A DNA stretch of 35,199 bases. Source: Clostridium sp. GTDB lineage: Bacteria; Bacillota; Clostridia; Clostridiales; Clostridiaceae. The position numbers and the translations under genes are program-made. Shown one piece after another: positions 8,850 to 35,199 of the stretch. The DNA lies in assembly GCA_031292145.1 (NCBI GenBank), contig JARLHR010000139.1, positions 1 through 35,199 on the forward strand, given 5' to 3'. The notes beneath the pieces are model-generated. The model did no database searches. It had not been told where the DNA came from and was given only the letters and a program-made list of their open reading frames with translations. Position 1 is the first letter of the stretch. Every line of letters begins with the position of its first letter.

Positions 8850-10106
8850 TTACTTTCTTTTCGATAATTCAGTTTCTTCATATTCTTTTACTTCTTTAAT
8901 CCAGCTTTCAGCTACTGGTACATTATTCTTTTCACAATAGTAATTCCAAATATCGCCCATTGGGTAAGTTTTGAATTCTTCCATTAAAGCTAATCTTTCT
9001 GTGAAGTTTCCTGCGTCTTGTAATTCTCTTAATTTATCATTTGGTGTTAACATTGCATTTAATAATGCTTTTATCATATTTCTTGTTCCAATTGTCCATG
9101 CTGCTATTCTGTTAATACTTGCATCAAAGAAATCAAGGCCAATAATTACTCTGTCTAATGCACCATTTCTTACTATTTCTTTAGCTATTTCTTTAAGTTC
9201 ATCATCATAAACTACAACATGGTCAGAATCCCATCTAACAGGTCTACTTACATGAAGAGCAACTTTTTCATCAAATAATAGCATTGCTGAAAGCTTATCT
9301 GAAACAACTTCAGTTGGATGATAATGTCCTGTGTCCATTAATGACATTATGTTATTTTTAGCTGCATAACTTAAATAAAACTCGTTCGAACCAACTGTAT
9401 AAGCTTCTGCCCCTATTCCAAATACTTTCGATTCAACACAGTCAAGATTGTATTTTTTATCAATCTCAACTTTGAAAATTTCATCTAAAGATTCTTTAAG
9501 TCTTCTTCTTGGTCCTAATCTATCACTTGGAATATCTTTATATCCATCTGGAATCCAAATATTAGTTAAGCAAGTCTGACCTAATTCTTTACCAAAATAT
9601 TCTCCAATTTTTCTTGATGCTACTGCATGTCTAATCCAGAAATCTCTTATTTCTTTATTTGGGTGAGAAAGTGTTAATCCATCTGAAGACTTTGGATGTG
9701 AGAATATTGTTGGATTAAAATCTAATCCTAATCCTCTTTCTTTTGCCCATTCAACCCAGTTTGCAAAATGCTCTGGCTTAATTTCATCTCTATCTACAAA
9801 TTTTCCATTAGTTTCTAAATAAATTGCATGAAGATTTACTTTGTGTTTTCCTGGAATCAAGCTTAATGCTTTATCTAAGTCTTTTCTTAATTCTTCAGCA
9901 TTTCTAGCTGCACCTGGATAGTTTCCGTTACATTGAATTCCACCAGATAACTCATTTTGAGACACTTCAAAACCTTTTACATCATCACCTTGCCAGCAAT
10001 GAATTGATATTTTAACTTTATTAAGCGCCTCTAAAACTTTATCTACATCTATTCCCCATTTTTCATATTCTTTTTTAGCTATTTCATATTTCTCTTTAAT
10101 ATTCAT
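8850..10106 (-). CDS. rhaA: L-rhamnose isomerase
   Basis: Converts L-rhamnose to L-rhamnulose, a cytoplasmic metal-dependent TIM-barrel enzyme. The 418-residue length and diagnostic stretches fit RhaA throughout: [82 protein letters not shown] and [16 protein letters not shown]. These contain the His, Asp and Glu residues that bind the two metals. AGGAGG precedes the ATG. It lies between rhaB and rhaD in a leftward operon. Confidence 0.95.
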
Positions 10107-10194
10107 TTTTTTCCTCCTATTTATGTTGGAATTTTGTTAATACTCATTTTGTTGTTTAAGTAATTTATATTAATAAGACTATCAACAATTTAAT

Positions 10195-11598
10195 TTAGTT
10201 TGCTTTAAATACTTTAATCTCAAAAGATTCTTTGATAGCTTGTCTTGCTTCTCCTAAATCCTTTAAAACGTTTTTACTTATAAGCTGAGCAACAATATTT
10301 CCTATAGCTGTAGCTTCAACCGGTCCTGCTAATACTTCTTTTTCAGTAATTTTAGCAACTAATTCATTTAAAAGATTGTTTTGACAACCTCCACCAAAAA
10401 TATTTATTCTTTTGAATTCCTTTTCAAATACTTCTTCAAGATTTAAAACAGCTTTTTTATAACAATGAGCCAAGCTATTGAATACGCACATTGCAATTTC
10501 TCCAACTTCTTCTGGAACCCTTTGCCCTGTCTCTTCACAATATTTCTTTATTTCTTCAACCATATTTTCTGGTTTTAAGAATCTATCATCATCTACATCA
10601 ACTATTGAAGTAAAATCTGAATGTTCTTTTGCCAAATCAACTAACTCTGCGAAGGAATATTTATTTTCAAGATTTCTTCTAACCTCTTGAATTACCCAAA
10701 GCCCCATGATATTTTTTAAGAATCTGTATCTATAATCTATTCCACCTTCATTAGTGAAGTTATACTCCATTGCTTGCGGAACACAAATTGGAAATCTATT
10801 TTCAACCCCAATTAATGACCATGTTCCTGAGCTTAAGTAAATGCTATCACTGTCATTGCATACAGATGAAATAAATGCTGAACCAGTATCATGAGTTGCA
10901 GGAAGTATTACTTCCATATCAAATCCAAATTCATTTACTAACTCTTCTCTTAAATTTCCCAGACTTGTTTTTGGTAATTTTGTCTCTTGAAAAATGTCTT
11001 TGTTAATTCCAAGTTTTTTTAAGATTTCTTCATCCCAAGTTCTTTCAAATGAATTAACTAGTTGAGTCGATGTTGCATTAGTATATTCGTTGAATTTCTT
11101 TCCTGTAAGCAAGAAATTTAAATAATCTGGAATCATTAAGAAAGTTTTTGCCTTTTCTAATATTTCAGGATTGTTCTTCTTTATAGAAAGTAATTGATAC
11201 ACTGTATTAAATCTTTGGAATTGAATTCCTGTATATAAATACATCATATCTTTTGGAATAACCTTAAAAACCTCTTCCATCATGCCTTCTGTCCTGTCAT
11301 CTCTATAAGCAACTGCATTTCCAAGCATCTTATCGTTTTCATCTAATAAAACAAAGTCAACGGCCCAAGTATCTATACCGATACTCTTTGGAACTTTCCC
11401 TATTTCTTTGCATTTTTTAATTCCAACTTTTATATCCTTAAATAACTGTTCAATGTTCCAACAATATTCATTTCCTATTTTGCTGATTCCATTTTCAAAT
11501 CTATAAATTTCTTCTAAATTTATCTTTCCATCTTCTACTGAGCCTAATATATGTCTTCCACTAGAAGCTCCAATATCAATGGCTAAATAGTAATCCAT
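10195..11598 (-). CDS. rhaB: Rhamnulokinase
   Basis: An FGGY-family sugar kinase that phosphorylates L-rhamnulose to L-rhamnulose 1-phosphate with ATP. Landmarks are AIDIGASSGRH at the N-terminus (phosphate 1), the catalytic aspartate Asp237 in PATHDTGSAF (the same number as in E. coli RhaB), SSGTWSLIG, and IFGGGCQNNLLNELVA near the C-terminus (adenosine binding). The 467-residue length is normal. AGGAGG is 6 nt from the ATG. It is the first gene of rhaB-rhaA-rhaD-fucO, and its promoter region carries a cre-like site. Confidence 0.94.
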   Translation of the reverse strand: MDYYLAIDIGASSGRHILGSVEDGKINLEEIYRFENGISKIGNEYCWNIEQLFKDIKVGIKKCKEIGKVPKSIGIDTWAVDFVLLDENDKMLGNAVAYRDDRTEGMMEEVFKVIPKDMMYLYTGIQFQRFNTVYQLLSIKKNNPEILEKAKTFLMIPDYLNFLLTGKKFNEYTNATSTQLVNSFERTWDEEILKKLGINKDIFQETKLPKTSLGNLREELVNEFGFDMEVILPATHDTGSAFISSVCNDSDSIYLSSGTWSLIGVENRFPICVPQAMEYNFTNEGGIDYRYRFLKNIMGLWVIQEVRRNLENKYSFAELVDLAKEHSDFTSIVDVDDDRFLKPENMVEEIKKYCEETGQRVPEEVGEIAMCVFNSLAHCYKKAVLNLEEVFEKEFKRINIFGGGCQNNLLNELVAKITEKEVLAGPVEATAIGNIVAQLISKNVLKDLGEARQAIKESFEIKVFKAN

Positions 11599-11648
11599 AT
11601 CTTTCCTCCTGTTCTTTTGTATTTATTTTTCATTCACACTACACCTAA

Positions 11649-11676
11649 ATTATATTGCAGAAAGAAACCGTTTTTA
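11649..11676 (-). promoter_or_regulatory. rhaB promoter with cre-like site
   Basis: On the minus strand a TATAAT (11649-11654) lies ~50 nt before the rhaB start; the -35 region (TTAAAA) is poor, as expected for an AraC-activated promoter. AGAAACCGTTTTTA (11663-11676) matches 8 of 10 fixed positions of the CcpA operator TGNAANCGNTNNCA and overlaps the -35, so catabolite repression is plausible. Confidence 0.4.
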
Positions 11677-11768
11677 ATATCGTGGTTTGTTTAAATTATT
11701 ATCCTTATTTGCAAATCTACTTATCATGGATAACCAACATATATTCTAAACTCATGAGATAACTAACC

Positions 11769-11955
11769 GAAATAAAATACATTTGTGTTCCACAGGACTA
11801 TGAAAATTTCGCTGAAAGCACTAGGAGGCAAGTTGCACCCACTTTGGCTTGCTCCAACCATTCGGTTGGACAAGCGAAAGTGGAACAACCTACCTCTAAG
11901 TGCTTTTAGCATCGAAATTTTCAAATGCCTGCTTCACACAAATGTATTTTATTTC
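11769..11955. repeat. Fold-back structured repeat, complete copy
   Basis: A 187-bp element bounded by perfect 19-bp inverted ends (11769-11787 and 11937-11955). Inside, nested pairings follow: 11802-11811 with 11913-11922; 11811-11822 with 11899-11910; GTTG with CAAC; CCACTTT with AAAGTGG; and an apical TCCAACC/GGTTGGA hairpin. The whole can fold into one long branched hairpin. No coding sequence is convincing inside, and no target-site duplication is obvious. A second copy in the opposite orientation starts at 35030 and keeps the same pairings with different bases. It may be a MITE-like element, a structured RNA gene, or both. The rest of the 577-bp gap (11599-12175) is the rhaB promoter and AT-rich DNA without a gene. 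Confidence 0.75.
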
Positions 11956-12175
11956 TAGTGTAGATATTACCTAAGTTTAGTATAATTTCATAATAATTTA
12001 AGTTATAAGTCAAATTCAAAATTGGGTTATCTATAGCCAGCAAAAAAAAGTACTCTGTTGTTTTAATTGCTATAGAAAATAACTGTAGGTATTTTCCTAA
12101 TACAACTTTGCACAAAAGAGCACCCCTTATTTCAAATATGGACTACATTTTAAAAAAATATATATCTTAATTAAA

Positions 12176-13147
12176 CTATTTATTATTACATAAGTTAAGT
12201 TTATATTCCCTTGGTGTCATTCCAAATTTATCTTTAAATATCTTATAAAAATATGTTGGATTTTCATAACCTACTAACTCAATTAAATCAACAATAGTGT
12301 AATCAGTTGATTTAATTAACTCAACAGCCTTGCTTAACTTTTTTTCCTGCAATAATTCTTTAAATGTCATTCCTGTATGTTTTTTTATTAGTTTGCTGAG
12401 TTTGTAATCTGGCTGCTTTAGTTTTTGTGATAGTTCTAAAAGAGTTGCTGTATTATAAAACTCATCAATATATTTAAGACTTTGAATTATCAACATCTTT
12501 TCATAATTATCTACAGAATATATCTCTATATCCTGTGAGTTCTTTATTAACTCTACTATTAAAAGTCCTACGAGCAATTTTATTGTTGCTTTGCTCATTA
12601 TTGAAGGAGCATATAATTCATTTATTATTCTTTCTATTAAATCCTGAATATTGTTTCTTTCTGAAACTTTAAAATACAAATATTCGCCTTCTTCATAGTC
12701 TGTATATATTGTAGTTAATAAAAATTTACTTATAATATTTTCATTATCTAAAAGAGTTATTATGTAATCAAAAAATTCTGGTCTAACTATGAAGTTAATA
12801 ATTATATCTTCCTCACTTGACGCTTGTATTTCATGGGTTATATATTGATTCAAAAATATTAATTCGCCCTTTTGCAAAATTATTTCTTTATTATCGATGA
12901 TTTGAGTCAATTTACCTTGGTAAACATAATTAAATTCAATGTAATTATGCGTATGACTTGGAAAATTAATAAATCTTGTATGTTTCCTAATATCTATTAA
13001 TTCCCCTGGCGGTAATAACTTATTACTATCTATGATAAATTTCCCATCATCAGTGTAAATACTCTTATTAACGGAGTTTTCTCCACTTAATATTTTTTTT
13101 TCTTCTTCCGTTAAAGCTATTAACTTATCATGAATTTCTCTTACCAT
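12176..13147 (-). CDS. AraC-family regulator, probable rhamnose regulator 1
   Basis: A 323-residue regulator. The N-terminal part has a cupin sensor domain (FPSHTHNYIEFNYVYQGKLTQII ... LQKGELIFLNQYITHEI), and the C-terminal ~100 residues have two helix-turn-helices ending in the AraC signature (VDLIELVGYENPTYFYKIFKDKFGMTPREYKL). The cupin plus position upstream of rhaB and in the same direction suggest a RhaR/RhaS-like activator responding to rhamnose or a rhamnoside. It shares architecture with the second AraC gene at 20754. AGGAG 10 nt before the ATG supports the start. Ligand assignment is inference from context. Confidence 0.82.
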   Translation of the reverse strand: MVREIHDKLIALTEEEKKILSGENSVNKSIYTDDGKFIIDSNKLLPPGELIDIRKHTRFINFPSHTHNYIEFNYVYQGKLTQIIDNKEIILQKGELIFLNQYITHEIQASSEEDIIINFIVRPEFFDYIITLLDNENIISKFLLTTIYTDYEEGEYLYFKVSERNNIQDLIERIINELYAPSIMSKATIKLLVGLLIVELIKNSQDIEIYSVDNYEKMLIIQSLKYIDEFYNTATLLELSQKLKQPDYKLSKLIKKHTGMTFKELLQEKKLSKAVELIKSTDYTIVDLIELVGYENPTYFYKIFKDKFGMTPREYKLNLCNNK

Positions 13148-13278
13148 AAGCTTTATTCTCCTATCTCGTTACAAATATCATGAAAATATCAATACTCATT
13201 TAGATTTAAACCTTTACTTTTTATTTTCAATCACTTTCAAAAAAACATTTTAATTATGTTTATAATAACGAATTCCAA

Positions 13279-13347
13279 GATAATATACAACCAAAATAAA
13301 GTTCCTATATTTATGTCTGCCGAATATAGAAAAAATCACCAGTCAAA
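13279..13347 (+). pseudogene. Fossil 3' end of an AraC-family gene
   Basis: A short open stretch ends in SAEYRKNHQSK and TAG (stop 13345-13347). The last ~25 nt before the stop match the 3' end of the AraC gene at 20754-21818 (TEYRKNHQSSQNH) almost exactly, and both are followed by a hairpin beginning TTTTAACGACGATAAAA. Nothing upstream in this 316-bp gap continues the HTH domain. It is a decayed remnant of a second, once rightward copy. Confidence 0.6.
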
Positions 13348-13376
13348 ATAGTTTTACTGTTTATATAAATGTAAAT

Positions 13377-13407
13377 TTTAACGACGATAAAAATATCGTC
13401 GTTAAAA
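13377..13407. terminator. Bidirectional terminator
   Basis: A perfect 14-bp stem, TTTTAACGACGATA with TATCGTCGTTAAAA, and a 3-nt loop. It follows the fossil AraC end on the plus strand and the MBL-fold gene on the minus strand. A related hairpin follows the intact AraC gene near 21840-21873. Confidence 0.75.
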
Positions 13408-13463
13408 CACAATTTACTAAATAAGTAGTTCATATTATTTAAATATATTATCAAATTAATCAA

Positions 13464-14300
13464 TTACAGATTGATTTTCTCTTTAGAATAAATAATATTA
13501 CCAACTTCACCATCAAGTCGTTCAAATTGTGCATTTGCTTTTTTAGCTATATATGCTCTCTGTCCCATAAAATCAAATGGTACATCATCACTTTTACCTG
13601 CCTTAATATCTTCACATAATTGAATAATATTTGATAATAATTCTTTTGGTGTTTCTCCTGTTCCATGAGAAAGAAGAATTTTATCAAATCTTCCGTCTGT
13701 TTTTGATAATAAGTCCATCATAGACTTTTCATAGCTTGTCGTACCAAGAGAATACTTATCAAATAAGAAAGTTGCTTGATTTGCAGCATCTCCAGTCATT
13801 AGCATCCTTTCTTCTTTAATAAGAACTGCTATTTGTCCCGGTGTATGTCCAGCTGCGTTATAAATTTCCAAGGTTATTACTCCAAGATCAAATACATCTC
13901 CCTCCTTTAAATCTTTATAAGCAGATGAATTTTTTGACTGCACATAATCACTCTCTATAATCTTATCAAAATCTTTATATTGAGCCTTAACATAACCTTT
14001 ACGCACCTCAAAATCAATATGTTCCTTATAAACTTCATCATCAGCATGGTTCATGTATACTTCCTCAAAATTTGGTGCACCAGATGCATGATCTACATGT
14101 CCATGAGTAAGAATTACTATAACTGGCTTATCAGTAAGTTTACTTACATACTCATTTAGATTTCCGACACCTGTCCCAGTATCTATAAGGGCAGCCTTAT
14201 TGCTTCCCTCCACTAAATACATTAATTCACCAGTTGGACCAAAGATTCTAGTAATGTTTTCTGAAATTTTTTTTGATTTAAAGAAATTAGATGGTTCCAT
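13464..14300 (-). CDS. MBL-fold metallohydrolase
   Basis: A 278-residue cytoplasmic hydrolase of the metallo-beta-lactamase superfamily. The dinuclear metal site is complete: His66/His68/Asp70/His71 in THGHVDH, His152 (GHTPGQ), Asp171 (TGDAANQ) and His212 (SHGTGE). The general layout resembles glyoxalase II or lactonase relatives rather than RNases, but the substrate cannot be told from sequence. GGAGG 7 nt before the ATG supports the start. It lies between the AraC regulator and an esterase inside the rhamnoside locus, so a role with an acyl or lactone derivative of the sugar is possible but unproven. Confidence 0.85.
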   Translation of the reverse strand: MEPSNFFKSKKISENITRIFGPTGELMYLVEGSNKAALIDTGTGVGNLNEYVSKLTDKPVIVILTHGHVDHASGAPNFEEVYMNHADDEVYKEHIDFEVRKGYVKAQYKDFDKIIESDYVQSKNSSAYKDLKEGDVFDLGVITLEIYNAAGHTPGQIAVLIKEERMLMTGDAANQATFLFDKYSLGTTSYEKSMMDLLSKTDGRFDKILLSHGTGETPKELLSNIIQLCEDIKAGKSDDVPFDFMGQRAYIAKKANAQFERLDGEVGNIIYSKEKINL

Positions 14301-14374
14301 TATTATACCTCCATATTTTAAACTAAGATTTTATTAGTATTCCTCAAAATTGCATGTGCCTGATTTTAATTCCT

Positions 14375-14533
14375 CTAATTTAATTTCTCATTCCCCTTTT
14401 TTGAAATTGCTATTAACATTCCAAGTAATATAGATAAAAATGATGAAGTTAAAACTCTATATTCAGCTGGTAATAGAAATACTACTGTATGACATGGTAT
14501 CCAAATAAGAGGACATGTCTTTAACCAGCAAAT
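14375..14533 (-). pseudogene. Membrane-protein-like remnant, in frame after the esterase stop
   Basis: Directly after the esterase TAA the same frame stays open for 52 codons and ends at TAG (14375-14377). The peptide has two hydrophobic runs (LIWIPCHTVVFLLP and VLTSSFLSILLGMLIAI) and a basic tail (SKKGNEKLN), like the C-terminus of a small membrane protein. No start codon or ribosome site precedes it. The best reading is a truncated gene whose 5' part was lost when the esterase gene was placed here. Family not recognised. Confidence 0.4.
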
Positions 14534-15544
14534 TTATTTAATACTGAGTATTTTTTTTAACCAATTATGAGCTAGTTCAGGCCATACCGAAATTCCTTCA
14601 TCAGATTGTATTTTCATCTGAGATACTAATTTCTTCATTTCTTCTTTGAATATGTCTCTAACACTTACTCCTTTCGGAATTTCTCCCATCATATTAAATG
14701 GCGGCGGCAACTCCATATTATTATCTATCATAAATTGTATATTTTCATAATATTGCTGCATAGTATAATCTCTGCCAAAATTTCCAGAAGCCCAATCCTC
14801 GTTAGCTAACGACATTCCATGACCTCCATTTCCAAACACATGATGTTCAAATATTACTCCATGTTTTTTACATGCTTCTGCGTACAAATAGCTGTTTTCC
14901 ACTGGTACAGCTTCATCTGTTGCTGTCTGCCATAAAAACGTAGGTGGTGTATCCTTAGTTACTTGCTTTTCTAATGACATATATTCTAATTCCTTCTGAC
15001 TTGCATCTGTGCCTAAAAGTGCTCTAAAGGAATCCTTGTGGGCATATTCTCCTGAAGTAATAACTGGATATGATAAGATTACTGCATCTGGCCGATTACT
15101 TACCCCTTCATACTCTGAATCAAGCACTAATTCTCTTGCATCAAAATGCACTGCCAAGCTTCCAGTAAGGTGTCCCCCTGCTGAAAATCCACAGATAACC
15201 ACTTTATTTTGGTCAATGCAAAATTCTTCTGCTTTTTTTCTCACAAGCATAACAGCCTTGGATAAATCCTTCAAGGGCTGTAACTTTAGTGGTGTTGTCA
15301 TCAATAGATTGGTTGTATATGTAACAACAAATGCATTGTAGCCTTTGTTATAGAACTCCTCCGCTACAATTTCAGCTTCTGTGTCAGATACCACACAATA
15401 TCCGCCTCCCGGAACTACTATCATAGCTGGTCTTAATTTATCATTCTCCTCATGAATATAAGTAAAAATATTAGGTATAAATTCCCCTCTAACTGGATAA
15501 GTATATTCTTCTTTTTTCCATAATAAATAAGTTTCATTAATCAT
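14534..15544 (-). CDS. Alpha/beta-hydrolase esterase (BD-FAE/acetyl-esterase type)
   Basis: A 336-residue cytoplasmic serine esterase. The oxyanion motif VVPGGGY lies at 43-49, the nucleophile Ser121 in GFSAGGH, and the acid and base are probably Asp210 (WQTATDEAVPVENS) and His242 (NGGHGMS). This arrangement resembles acetylxylan or feruloyl esterase-like enzymes that deacylate plant oligosaccharides. The open frame reaches a TTG at 15559, but GGAGG (15553-15557) overlaps that codon and points to ATG 15542-15544 (MINETYLLWKK). It lies just downstream of the alpha-L-rhamnosidase, so it probably removes acyl groups from imported rhamnosides; that substrate is inference. Confidence 0.85.
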   Translation of the reverse strand: MINETYLLWKKEEYTYPVRGEFIPNIFTYIHEENDKLRPAMIVVPGGGYCVVSDTEAEIVAEEFYNKGYNAFVVTYTTNLLMTTPLKLQPLKDLSKAVMLVRKKAEEFCIDQNKVVICGFSAGGHLTGSLAVHFDARELVLDSEYEGVSNRPDAVILSYPVITSGEYAHKDSFRALLGTDASQKELEYMSLEKQVTKDTPPTFLWQTATDEAVPVENSYLYAEACKKHGVIFEHHVFGNGGHGMSLANEDWASGNFGRDYTMQQYYENIQFMIDNNMELPPPFNMMGEIPKGVSVRDIFKEEMKKLVSQMKIQSDEGISVWPELAHNWLKKILSIK

Positions 15545-15644
15545 CTTAATTTCCTCCAATCATTATAATCCGCCTAGAATTCAAAATTTCCTATTTGTTA
15601 TAATAACAAATTCTATCGTAAATTATTTCTATAACTTATTCAAA

Positions 15645-15676
15645 TAGGGATGTTATATAATTTTACAACATCCCTA
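15645..15676 (-). terminator. Hairpin between the rhamnosidase and esterase genes
   Basis: TAGGGATGTT pairs perfectly with AACATCCCTA across a 12-nt loop. On the minus strand it lies downstream of the rhamnosidase and is followed by ATTTG, a weak T-tract. It may lower readthrough into the esterase gene. Confidence 0.55.
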
Positions 15677-15749
15677 ACCTATACCTTTTTAATTTCACTT
15701 ACAAATTCATTTCTACTTCAGTGCTAGTTGGGATTAATATTTTCCACAT

Positions 15750-18632
15750 CTAAACTTTAACCCTGCATTTACTTAACTCTATCGCCAATGCATCAATCTG
15801 TTCCTGATTTAAAAGAGATAATGGTCCAAAAATAGGATTAGCTGTAAGTGGTTTATTTAGTGATAAATCAAGTAATTCAGGAATATTTTGAAAACCATCT
15901 AATTGAGAACCTATATATTTACGAAGAATTGCTATTCCTTCTTCATTTTCTAGTACATCTTTTAGAGAACTCTTTATATTTAAGTAAGGATAATAATCTC
16001 GAGTTGGCTTATAAGATATTTCAAGTCTGCCAGCCTCTACTTTTAATATTATGTTTCCATCCTTTTCTTCCATATTAAGAGGTTCATCGCCTTCGATAAC
16101 TATATCAGCAAGATTAGCATCTGGAAGGATTATTTCAGCCTCACAGTTAAATGGCACTTCAAAATTATATTTCACTTTTTCATCCTCCATCAATTCCCAA
16201 CTACTCACATAAGTTCCTGATGCTGATTTATAGTGAATACAAGCATTCTTCAAGTATGCAAATGGCTGCGGTTTAATAAGAGCTTTCTTAAATCCTGGTC
16301 CATCAAAAACTGGATTTAAGCCACAGATATCTCTTGCAATCCATTCCACTACAGAACCATATGCATAATGATTCATACTATTCATACCAGTACTGCTGAC
16401 AGATCCATCTGGATTTACTGAATTCCAGCGTTCCCAAATTGTAGTTGCTCCCATATTGACACTATATAACCAACTTGGGAAATCATCATTAATTAATAAT
16501 TTATAAGCAAAGTCATTTGCTCCTACACTGGAAAGTACTCTACATATGTATGGTGTCCCTACAAATCCAGTATCTAAATGTGTTCCTTTATCTACTAATT
16601 TTGTCTTTAAGGCTTCTGCTACTCGAGTGCGATGTTCTCGTGGAAGCAGATCCATAAATAAAGCTAATACATGTGCTGTCTGCGTATCTACACAAATCTT
16701 TCCGTTTGGAGTAATGTATTCATTACAAAATGCTGCTTTTATTTCTTCCTGAAGCTTTCTGTAATATGCAGCATCTACTTTCTTTCCAATGGCTTCTGCA
16801 GCATCACCAGTTAATTTCACTGAATAATAATAGTATGCAGTCGCAACATAATATTGATCTGTTCCTCCATTAAAAATGTCGCTTTTATCAGGGTTATCAA
16901 GCGCTAGCCAGTCTGCTATATGATTTCCTGTCTGCCAAAGACGCTTTCCGCCATCAGCCTCATCTTCTCTAATAATATAATCTACCCAGTCCTTCATAGC
17001 ATCATAATGCTTTTCAAGCATAGATTTATCTCCAAAATATAGGTAAGTAGTCCATGGAAGAATAGTTGCTACATCTCCCCAAGCACTTGAACCATGTCCT
17101 GTTCCTACTTCTCTCTGATTTCTCACGCGTGGTATAATTACAGGTACTGATCCATTAATTAATTTTTGTTCTTCTCTAAGCTCTTTCATATATTTATTAT
17201 AAAAGGCTGCTGTATTAGCAAAAAAGCTTGCTGTTCCTGAGAAAACCTGAGTATCGCCAGTCCATCCCATACGTTCGTCTCTTTGTGGACAATCTGTAGG
17301 AATATCAACAAAATTACCTTTTTGACCCCATTTTGCATTTAAAATCAGGCGGTTAACTCTTTCATCAGAAGTCTTAATTTCTCCTAACTCGTCCATATGA
17401 GAATGAATAGCGTATGCAGTAAAATCTTCCGGATTTACTTCCATACCTTCCACCTTTATATAACGGAAACCATAATAGGTAAAGTGAGGTCTTACATGAG
17501 CTGGTTTCCCATTAGATATATATTCATATTCTGCTTTTGCACTTCTTAAATTATCTCGATAAAAACATCCCTTTTGAAGAAGTTCTCCGTATTGTATTAG
17601 AACTCTATCATCTTTTGGAATATTGATATCAAATTCTACCCAGCCTGCCATGTTCTGTCCAAAATCTAGAACCATTTCGCCTTTTGAAGTAATTATTTTT
17701 TTTGGCTTAAAAGATTCATGCTTAATAATAGGAGGACTTAAACGCTCTTCCATAGATCCAAGCTTTAATTCTGCTGGCTTTACACCTGCCCAGCTATCAT
17801 CCTCACAAGTTTCCTTTGACCAGTCTGCTATTTCATTATTTGCATTATAATGCTCTCCATCATAAATTCCACTTTTAGAAACTGGTCCCGCGTAGGATTT
17901 CCAACTTTCATCAGTAGCAATTACAACTTGACTTCCGTCCTCTTTAGTTATAACAATTTCACATAAGAGCGCCATTCTGTCTCCATAAGTGTTTTCCAAT
18001 CCTCCAAGACCAAAACGTCCAGAAAACCATCCTTTACCGAGCATTGCACCAATAACATTCTTTCCATCCTTTAAATATTTTGTAACATCAAAAGTCTGAT
18101 ACTGCATCCAACAGTCATAAACAGAATAACCTGGAAGAAGATATTCTTCTGAAATTTTCTCTCCGTTAATTTCCATCTCATAAATTCCAGCCGCAGAAGC
18201 ATAAACTCTAGCAGATTTAATGTTTCCGTCAACCTCAAAAGATTTTCTCATATAAGGATGAGCATCTTTATCTAAATCTGGTGTAATCCAAATACCTTTC
18301 CATGGCTGACTAAGCTTTCCAGTTTCAAATGTTGCCGTCTCACTTTCGGCAACTTCTCCATTATCTCCTGTAACTTTAACCTTCCAATAATAACAAGTGC
18401 ATGGTTCAAGTTCTATACCAGGTCTAAAAGATCGGCTATCTGCGTCTTTACACTCACCACTGTCATATATAAAAGAATTATTATCAAATTTATTATCTTT
18501 ACTTATAATAACTCGTGCACTTTCTTGTTTTTTTGCATTAGTATCTTCCACAACCCATGAAAGACTTAAATCACTTATATTGCAACCAAGAGGATTTTTA
18601 AAATGATTAGCTCTCAATCTAACTATTTTCAT
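15750..18632 (-). CDS. Alpha-L-rhamnosidase, GH78, cytoplasmic
   Basis: Releases terminal alpha-L-rhamnose from glycosides by inversion. From the ATG at 18630-18632 it is 960 residues, with the usual GH78 order: N-terminal beta domains (WKGIWITPD, YEMEINGEKI, GMLGKGWFSGRFG-like), middle beta domain (DFGQNMAGWVEF), the (alpha/alpha)6 catalytic domain with the acidic motif TDCPQRDERMGWTGD at about 446-460, and the GATTIWERWNS motif near residue 740. A C-terminal beta domain follows, with an extra ~80-residue tail. GGAAGG 6 nt before the ATG favours this start over one 22 codons upstream. No signal peptide is seen, so it acts on imported substrate. It supplies rhamnose to RhaA. The natural aglycone is unknown. 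Confidence 0.92.
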   Translation of the reverse strand: MKIVRLRANHFKNPLGCNISDLSLSWVVEDTNAKKQESARVIISKDNKFDNNSFIYDSGECKDADSRSFRPGIELEPCTCYYWKVKVTGDNGEVAESETATFETGKLSQPWKGIWITPDLDKDAHPYMRKSFEVDGNIKSARVYASAAGIYEMEINGEKISEEYLLPGYSVYDCWMQYQTFDVTKYLKDGKNVIGAMLGKGWFSGRFGLGGLENTYGDRMALLCEIVITKEDGSQVVIATDESWKSYAGPVSKSGIYDGEHYNANNEIADWSKETCEDDSWAGVKPAELKLGSMEERLSPPIIKHESFKPKKIITSKGEMVLDFGQNMAGWVEFDINIPKDDRVLIQYGELLQKGCFYRDNLRSAKAEYEYISNGKPAHVRPHFTYYGFRYIKVEGMEVNPEDFTAYAIHSHMDELGEIKTSDERVNRLILNAKWGQKGNFVDIPTDCPQRDERMGWTGDTQVFSGTASFFANTAAFYNKYMKELREEQKLINGSVPVIIPRVRNQREVGTGHGSSAWGDVATILPWTTYLYFGDKSMLEKHYDAMKDWVDYIIREDEADGGKRLWQTGNHIADWLALDNPDKSDIFNGGTDQYYVATAYYYYSVKLTGDAAEAIGKKVDAAYYRKLQEEIKAAFCNEYITPNGKICVDTQTAHVLALFMDLLPREHRTRVAEALKTKLVDKGTHLDTGFVGTPYICRVLSSVGANDFAYKLLINDDFPSWLYSVNMGATTIWERWNSVNPDGSVSSTGMNSMNHYAYGSVVEWIARDICGLNPVFDGPGFKKALIKPQPFAYLKNACIHYKSASGTYVSSWELMEDEKVKYNFEVPFNCEAEIILPDANLADIVIEGDEPLNMEEKDGNIILKVEAGRLEISYKPTRDYYPYLNIKSSLKDVLENEEGIAILRKYIGSQLDGFQNIPELLDLSLNKPLTANPIFGPLSLLNQEQIDALAIELSKCRVKV

Positions 18633-18770
18633 AATTAACCTTCCATTTCTATTTTTAAATATAATTTGTATATGCTGCTTTAACTTATTAATTTTCAATA
18701 AACAGTATTCCAGATAACTCGGATGTTAAAATATAAATTATATACAGTTTTAAAATAATAGATAACCATT

Positions 18771-34673: not shown

Positions 34674-35029
34674 AACAATTCCTCCCTAAATATAAGGCAT
34701 ATTCAACAAAATAATAAGCCAGTATGCTAGTCTATTTTCCTTCATATGCCTAGAAATGAATTTCGACTAAAATATTGTTAACAAAATGATTATACTATTG
34801 GCATTGCATTATGTATAGACAGAATGAAAAAAAGCCATTCTTTTACGACTAGCTTTTAATCTTTACTTTTAAATTTTATAGATATCCAACGCATAAGCTA
34901 GACTTGTGTGGTAACTTACCGAAATCTATTTCTTAAATTGGATACCTATATAGATACCCACAACGTAATTTATACTTATGCTTGGTATTATATTCAGCAT
35001 TTACCATACTTAAGCGTATATAAAACAAA

Positions 35030-35199
35030 GAAATTGGATACATATTTGTGTAATAGGTATTGAAAATAAGCTGTTGAAGTTTCTTAATGGGAGGTTGTTC
35101 CATTTTTGCTTGTCCTGAGCTTGCCTCAGGAGCATGCGGAAATGGGTGCAACCTCCCATTTAGAAACTTCCAGCGAAATTTTCGCAGTCCTATGGAACA
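35030..35199. repeat. Fold-back structured repeat, second copy (cut by window edge)
   Basis: Starts with GAAATTGGATACATATTTGTG-like sequence (35030-35050), equivalent to the inverted end of the first copy, and runs off the window. It is in the opposite orientation to 11769-11955. Internal stems: GAAGTTTCT with AGAAACTTC; AATGGGAGGTTG with CAACCTCCCATT (perfect 12 bp); CCATTT with AAATGG; apical TCCTGAG with CTCAGGA. Sequences between stems such as TTGCACCCA, TGGAACAAC and GGACAAGC are shared with copy 1. The preceding 34674-35029 holds the methyltransferase promoter and a GTAACTTACCGAAAT motif (34911-34925) like that beside copy 1; no gene seen. Confidence 0.7.

Follow-up and report, generated by a model that had tools for sequence, protein, structure and literature searches.

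The RUP of Streptococcus pneumoniae is a 107-bp repeat that carries no gene, occurs in many copies, has terminal inverted repeats like those of IS630-type elements and lies at a TA target, as described in the accessible portions of two papers (PMC2229807, PMC3049150). A second pneumococcal repeat, BOX, is presented in the same portions of the latter as an assembly of boxA, boxB and boxC modules linked to ISSpn2, and a stop codon is encoded at its 3' end in 36 of 58 overlaps with coding sequences (PMC3049150). For the Correia (NEMIS) repeats of Neisseria, the available text reports terminal inverted repeats, TA at the ends and long stem-loops once transcribed (PMC2229807). A precedent of another kind comes from rRNA and microRNA genes, in which template-switch mutations are described, in the part of the source at hand, as producing concerted changes in stems, with loop inversion and the rewriting of an arm to match its partner named as their footprints (PMC8794818).

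Here we describe a MITE family of Clostridium that is unreported within the literature searched, which did not extend to subscription papers; that search found nothing joining C. beijerinckii with IS630, the papers that combine IS630, MITE and Clostridium look unrelated, and the accessible parts of PMC5217627 and PMC2267715 hold nothing on this repeat. Judged by the published descriptions, the family is like RUP (with IS630-Spn1) in its many gene-less copies, its terminal inverted repeats and the TA at its target, like the Correia repeats in its inverted ends, TA and long stem-loop, and like BOX in that the repeat can supply the stop codon of a gene. It differs from BOX, with its modules and its link to ISSpn2, and from RUP in its length (mostly 281 or 311-312 bp), its 184-nt covarying hairpin, its alternative cores and a placement at stop codons that is polar. 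With the template-switch mutations it shares arm repair, inversion of a loop and stems that change in concert, here in a mobile DNA element. We assign a probability of roughly 77% to the reading that this is a MITE moved by an IS630-family transposase, with arms that evolve in concert, a polar placement at stop codons and copies that are kept there.

The window, as we call the whole stretch of 35,199 nucleotides that was analysed, contains two copies of the element, the second inverted and cut by the contig edge (Table 1). A first-pass annotation, made from the letters alone, had located both copies correctly, and the stems that it quoted, together with their exchange between the copies, are confirmed by the sequence; the interval that it gave for copy 1 holds for the hairpin and not for the whole element, the mobile unit extending beyond it on both sides. 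Copy 1 folds into a single, near full-length hairpin of -100.5 kcal/mol (shuffled sequences -38.1 +/- 3.8, n = 200; z = -16.4), the apical design of which recurs in elements with differing lower stems. A mini-element adjoins copy 2, and one TA is common to both. Copy 1 has the start of an FGGY-kinase gene on one side and the end of an AraC-type gene on the other, and is an exception to the placement of the family in that it does not lie behind a stop codon.

Table 1. Positions of the element copies and their parts in the window
Feature	Position	Strand	Details
Copy 1, whole element, 311 bp	11725..12035	+	ends CATGGATAACCAA (diverged) ... TGGGTTATCTATA; pattern with at most 2 mismatches
Left shoulder of copy 1, including outer terminal inverted repeat	11725..11768	+	
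Hairpin core of copy 1	11769..11955	+	sequence, folding, covariation
Apical domain of copy 1	11831..11891	+	asymmetric internal loop GTTG-CAC-CCA / TGG-AA-CAAC; single-base C bulge
Right shoulder of copy 1	11956..12035	+	ATTTCTrGTGTAGATAT motif; outer terminal inverted repeat
Copy 2	34949..35199	-	hairpin, right shoulder and right end; left part beyond contig edge
Mini-element, 74 bp	34877..34950	-	both ends, without hairpin core; outer end matches TATAGATAnnCAA

Further copies, which the first-pass annotation proposed to collect with a covariance model, proved numerous both in the draft assembly that contains the window (G000, 282 contigs) and in related genomes, among them G008, G040 and G041. 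Searches of G000 with copy 1 and with copy 2 each gave at least 40 places (40 of 246 and 40 of 199 first-look candidates scored, respectively). A covariance model (R1), run at E 0.001 against 68 genomes of this genus, to which C. beijerinckii belongs, had matches in at least 17 of them, with up to 39 candidates scored per genome, and a closer search with the same model, 150 candidates being scored in each genome, yielded at least 137 matches in G040, at least 121 in G041 and at least 128 in G008. From 314 nhmmer places we kept 231 (length >165 nt, score >60), 226 of them distinct; the HUN142 locus L061 is excluded from this set, its coordinates coinciding with G041:C20. The process by which the arms evolve thus becomes measurable in the relatives of C. 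beijerinckii, where a genome holds more than 100 copies.

The shoulders that flank the hairpin, about 45 and 80 nt long, terminate in TATAGATAnnCAA...TTGnnTATCTATA; the first of these sequences occurs 193 times in G000, against 23 for a reversed control, and 99 times against 15 in G008. Ends of the form TAGATAnnCAA...TTGnnTATCTA, with at most two mismatches each, were both found around 102 of the 231 hairpins, giving element lengths of 233-348 bp with modes at 281 and 311-312 bp, and no further direct repeat was seen at the ends of these 102 copies. The same ends bound units of 47, 106, 180 and 185 bp, and a dedicated pattern search recovered 18 elements that have other lower stems and retain the apical design GTTG..CCA...TGGAACAAC; the pattern matches none of the main-family copies, the likeness to the main family being one found by reading the sequences.

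Movement of the element is seen at one locus, where an empty site, one of the checks suggested in the first-pass annotation, could be resolved: G041 reads TTTATTAGCATTTT and the filled site in G040 reads TTTATTA(TAGATACCC...TATCTA)TAGCATTTT, with the element in brackets and the TA duplicated. At the same site in G008, an element with a different core lies about 35-40 bp upstream, at a TA by reading. G040 also carries a 1200-bp unit with MITE-type ends (locus L293), situated between TATAGATATCCAA and TTGTTTATCTATA and containing two overlapping open reading frames, the first with winged-helix domains and the second with DDE_3. Genes of IS630 elements may be read through a frameshift, and both frames match NF033545 (NCBIfam IS630), at 80 and 107 bits, the cut-off for a whole protein being 100. 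Across the genus, PF13358 has matches in 14 of 68 genomes, and the G040 element was found adjoining a MITE. MITE-type ends adjoin the gene, with at most one mismatch, at 4 of the 15 PF13358 loci scanned (L293, L296, L304 and L309); the latter three are contig ends of G041 carrying C-terminal pieces of a transposase, of which two, on reading, run into a MITE-type end with differing flanks beyond it, and the third does so by pattern. Inside the terminal repeat, the ends of the G040 element and of the MITEs are only weakly alike on average: over the right 70 nt, mean identity is 0.71, compared with 0.63 when the MITE ends are shuffled, and over the left 46 nt it is 0.70, with 0.72 to the opposite end. 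Ends in common with an autonomous-looking IS630-family element, a TA duplication and many short, gene-less copies are the marks of an IS630-derived MITE, and these ends, the duplication and the empty site support the suggestion of the first-pass annotation that this could be a non-autonomous transposable element. An IS630-family (Tc1/mariner-like) transposase would move the MITE in trans. Zero PF13358 matches were found in the G000 draft, so that movement there now is conjectural, and G008 holds two broken pieces.

Concerted change of the two arms, first noticed between copies 1 and 2, is strongly borne out by an alignment of 75 oriented copies, in which both sides change in 36 of 54 pairs and 96.6% of cells pair. 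Sliding the partner by 1-3 columns lowers pairing to 38-47% and the covariation score from 0.387 to no more than 0.093, and paired changes number 565 cells against 161 in shuffles. The step from paired substitution to selection on the fold, which the first-pass annotation had taken, is a weak one because template switching leaves the same trace, as far as the accessible part of that source goes (PMC8794818).

When changes were scored against cluster majorities (136 of the 231 copies, in 7 clusters), 192 single breaks were counted in 6774 cells (51 G-T, 79 A-C, 62 other), alongside 48 double cells leading to a Watson-Crick pair and 1 leading to a non-pair. Distinct double events number 21, with pairing restored in 20, and 12 of these 20 have states absent from the other cluster majorities; by arithmetic, independent hits on the two sides, each at the rate of single changes, would yield about 1.4 doubles. 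Paired changes run mostly from one Watson-Crick pair to another. In one of the 231 copies the apical loop is an exact 8-nt inversion of a neighbour's loop, and in 2 of 231 the internal loop is 'healed', that is, rewritten to match the opposite arm. The inversion and both cases of healing are indicative of template switching from arm to arm, and much of the compensatory change would stem from such switching during DNA replication. Template switching as the sole cause is argued against by a stricter test for loop inversion, which found none, by the rarity of healing (no bulge in 231 copies, beside the two internal loops) and by single-sided changes that are about 30% rarer per site in stems (0.0142, 192/13548) than in loops (0.0199, 194/9751), as selection would likewise produce. 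Since covariation is here overwhelming in mobile DNA that bears template-switch footprints, a control is needed wherever such tests are applied to palindromic mobile DNA.

Placement of the family is polar, stop codons being much commoner at the left end than at the right. Of the 231 copies, 91 retain both ends and have flanks of 450 bp; a frame of at least 100 codons terminates no more than 60 nt from the left end in 45 of these 91 and from the right end in 5, one copy entering both counts. Discordant cases favour the left end in G040 (17 of 18), G008 (7 of 7), G041 (6 of 6) and G000 (9 of 11); the p value of 1.5e-9 for polarity is an overstatement because orthologues are counted separately. 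Gene direction was counted in the 121 of 150 full copies that lie between two genes: of the 121 genes preceding the left end, 92 are co-directional, and right-side genes divide 62 to 59. In 29 of the 89 left-end cases, the element itself contains the stop. A transposon hairpin landing behind a stop would join the 3' end of the gene and might then be kept, with ending, protecting or insulating the transcript as candidate roles.

Conservation in place was tested on 16 same-site pairs with shoulder divergence of at most 20%. In the 11 pairs behind stops, stems differ at 16 of 1183 positions (1.35%), loops at 23 of 824 (2.8%) and shoulders at 102 of 1394 (7.3%), with 3.5% divergence in the upstream flank. 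In the 5 pairs elsewhere, the contrast is slight, the corresponding values being 4.7%, 4.3%, 5.8% and 3.5%, a rate driven by a single pair (G008 3617803 / G040 3703766) that is 13% different and may represent a replacement. An alternative set comprised 15 non-redundant pairs selected for hairpins at least 93% identical, which biases it towards slow hairpins; neither set bears out unconstrained mutation of single copies. An orthologous trio at the same stop codon has four in-place double changes at 87% identity. That hairpins behind stops change more slowly than their own shoulders speaks, on few pairs, for keeping at gene ends, and selection may preserve some of the copies that have landed. 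We hold it possible, yet doubtful, that polar insertion or survival at stops turns the bulged hairpin into a host-kept 3' UTR with arms matched by template switching; if true, genes would have mobile tails, and the concerted evolution of arms could be watched in a natural system. Polar placement and slower hairpin change would allow one to ask whether transposons supply the 3' ends of bacterial genes.

A pure parasite with no host role, its polarity owed to tolerated or targeted insertion and its slow hairpins to arm correction or to the choice of pairs, is a serious contender that falls a little short of an even chance. It is consistent with the lack of a wobble preference and with a total change that, once both members of each double are counted, is equal in stems and loops (0.0214 and 0.0199 per site, respectively). 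Same-site pairs likewise look as if elements come and go: of the 32 in the same orientation (a further 8 are inverted, a second copy being involved in 3 of these, and rows repeat loci), 17 have hairpins 93-100% identical and 11 are less than 77% alike, with at least one flank more than 90% alike in 8 of the 11, and we read the dissimilar pairs, short of proof, as re-insertion or replacement. A host role is further opposed by the single breaks carried by the 17 close pairs (10 A-C, 7 G-T, 4 other), by the small number of pairs away from stops (n = 5) and by copy 1 itself. Against a pure parasite stand the loops of copies behind stops, at 2.8% compared with 7.3% in shoulders, as arm correction cannot slow unpaired positions.

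A functional RNA family, its stems selected for RNA folding and its spread due to transposition, we consider improbable, in spite of very strong covariation, conserved unpaired motifs and slower change behind stop codons. Covariation usually counts as the best proof of a conserved RNA, and here it is overwhelming in mobile DNA without the wobble signature: Watson-Crick-majority pairs in the 226 distinct rows contain 135 G-T cells against 252 A-C, so that a preference for G-U wobble over A-C mismatch, as expected under selection for RNA folding, was not found. The A-C excess results from a bias of G>A over C>T (26.6 vs 16.3 per 1000) that is seen in unpaired columns too, and selection on the minus strand, considered as a reason for the same excess, was rejected on this ground. 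Rfam 15 gave no match to the window at gathering score, two miRNA matches lying below threshold. As the origin of the family, the 'structured RNA' of the first-pass annotation finds no support, given the lack of a gathering-level Rfam match and of a G-U preference; what may survive of it is a role of single copies, as hairpins behind stops diverge less than their own shoulders.

A single-strand (HUH or attC-like) element, with the bulged hairpin as recombination substrate, is highly improbable: the bulge and internal loop are conserved and the apical design is present in the 18 other-core elements, but the inverted ends, the TA duplication, a DDE transposase element whose ends are the same and the distribution of Y1_Tnp, which has zero matches in G008 and a single broken piece in G000, all speak against it. 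The same search, made for Y1_Tnp (IS200/IS605) alone, leads us to reject this transposase as a partner of the IS630-type MITE, counts against membership in the IS200/IS605-derived palindromes (REP, PATE) and lends no support to an RNA tied to a mobile nuclease, another early suggestion.

Some further observations concern individual loci. An IS4-type transposase (L110) was rejected as a partner, since it matches once in G008 and not at all in G000 and has distinct ends of its own; this IS4-type element (DDE_Tnp_1; L110 2640-4184, G008) sits at the end of a MITE. At several orthologous sites, the elements of sister genomes are opposite in orientation or belong to different subfamilies, sometimes with one shoulder in common (for example, G008 2725465 / G040 2752646 and G040 2383178 / G041:C20 67183), as if residents were replaced or the sites were preferred targets. 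Two identical copies (L105 and L106, at G008:C1 2572789 and 2573331) lie 542 bp apart with near flanks alike, a tandem duplication that includes the element. A subfamily (L115, L127 and nine 250-nt R1 matches) that occurs in G000, G008, G040 and G041 has an apical loop enlarged by a further insert, about 67 nt long and foldable by eye. The ATTTCTrGTGTAGATAT motif of the right shoulder, found at window positions 11950-11967 and at 88 places in G000, resembles the core of Cas12a CRISPR repeats, presumably by chance. Copy 1 is surrounded by rhamnose-type genes (window positions 8850-18698), which comprise the FGGY kinase, a RhaA isomerase, an alpha-L-rhamnosidase and the AraC-type regulator.
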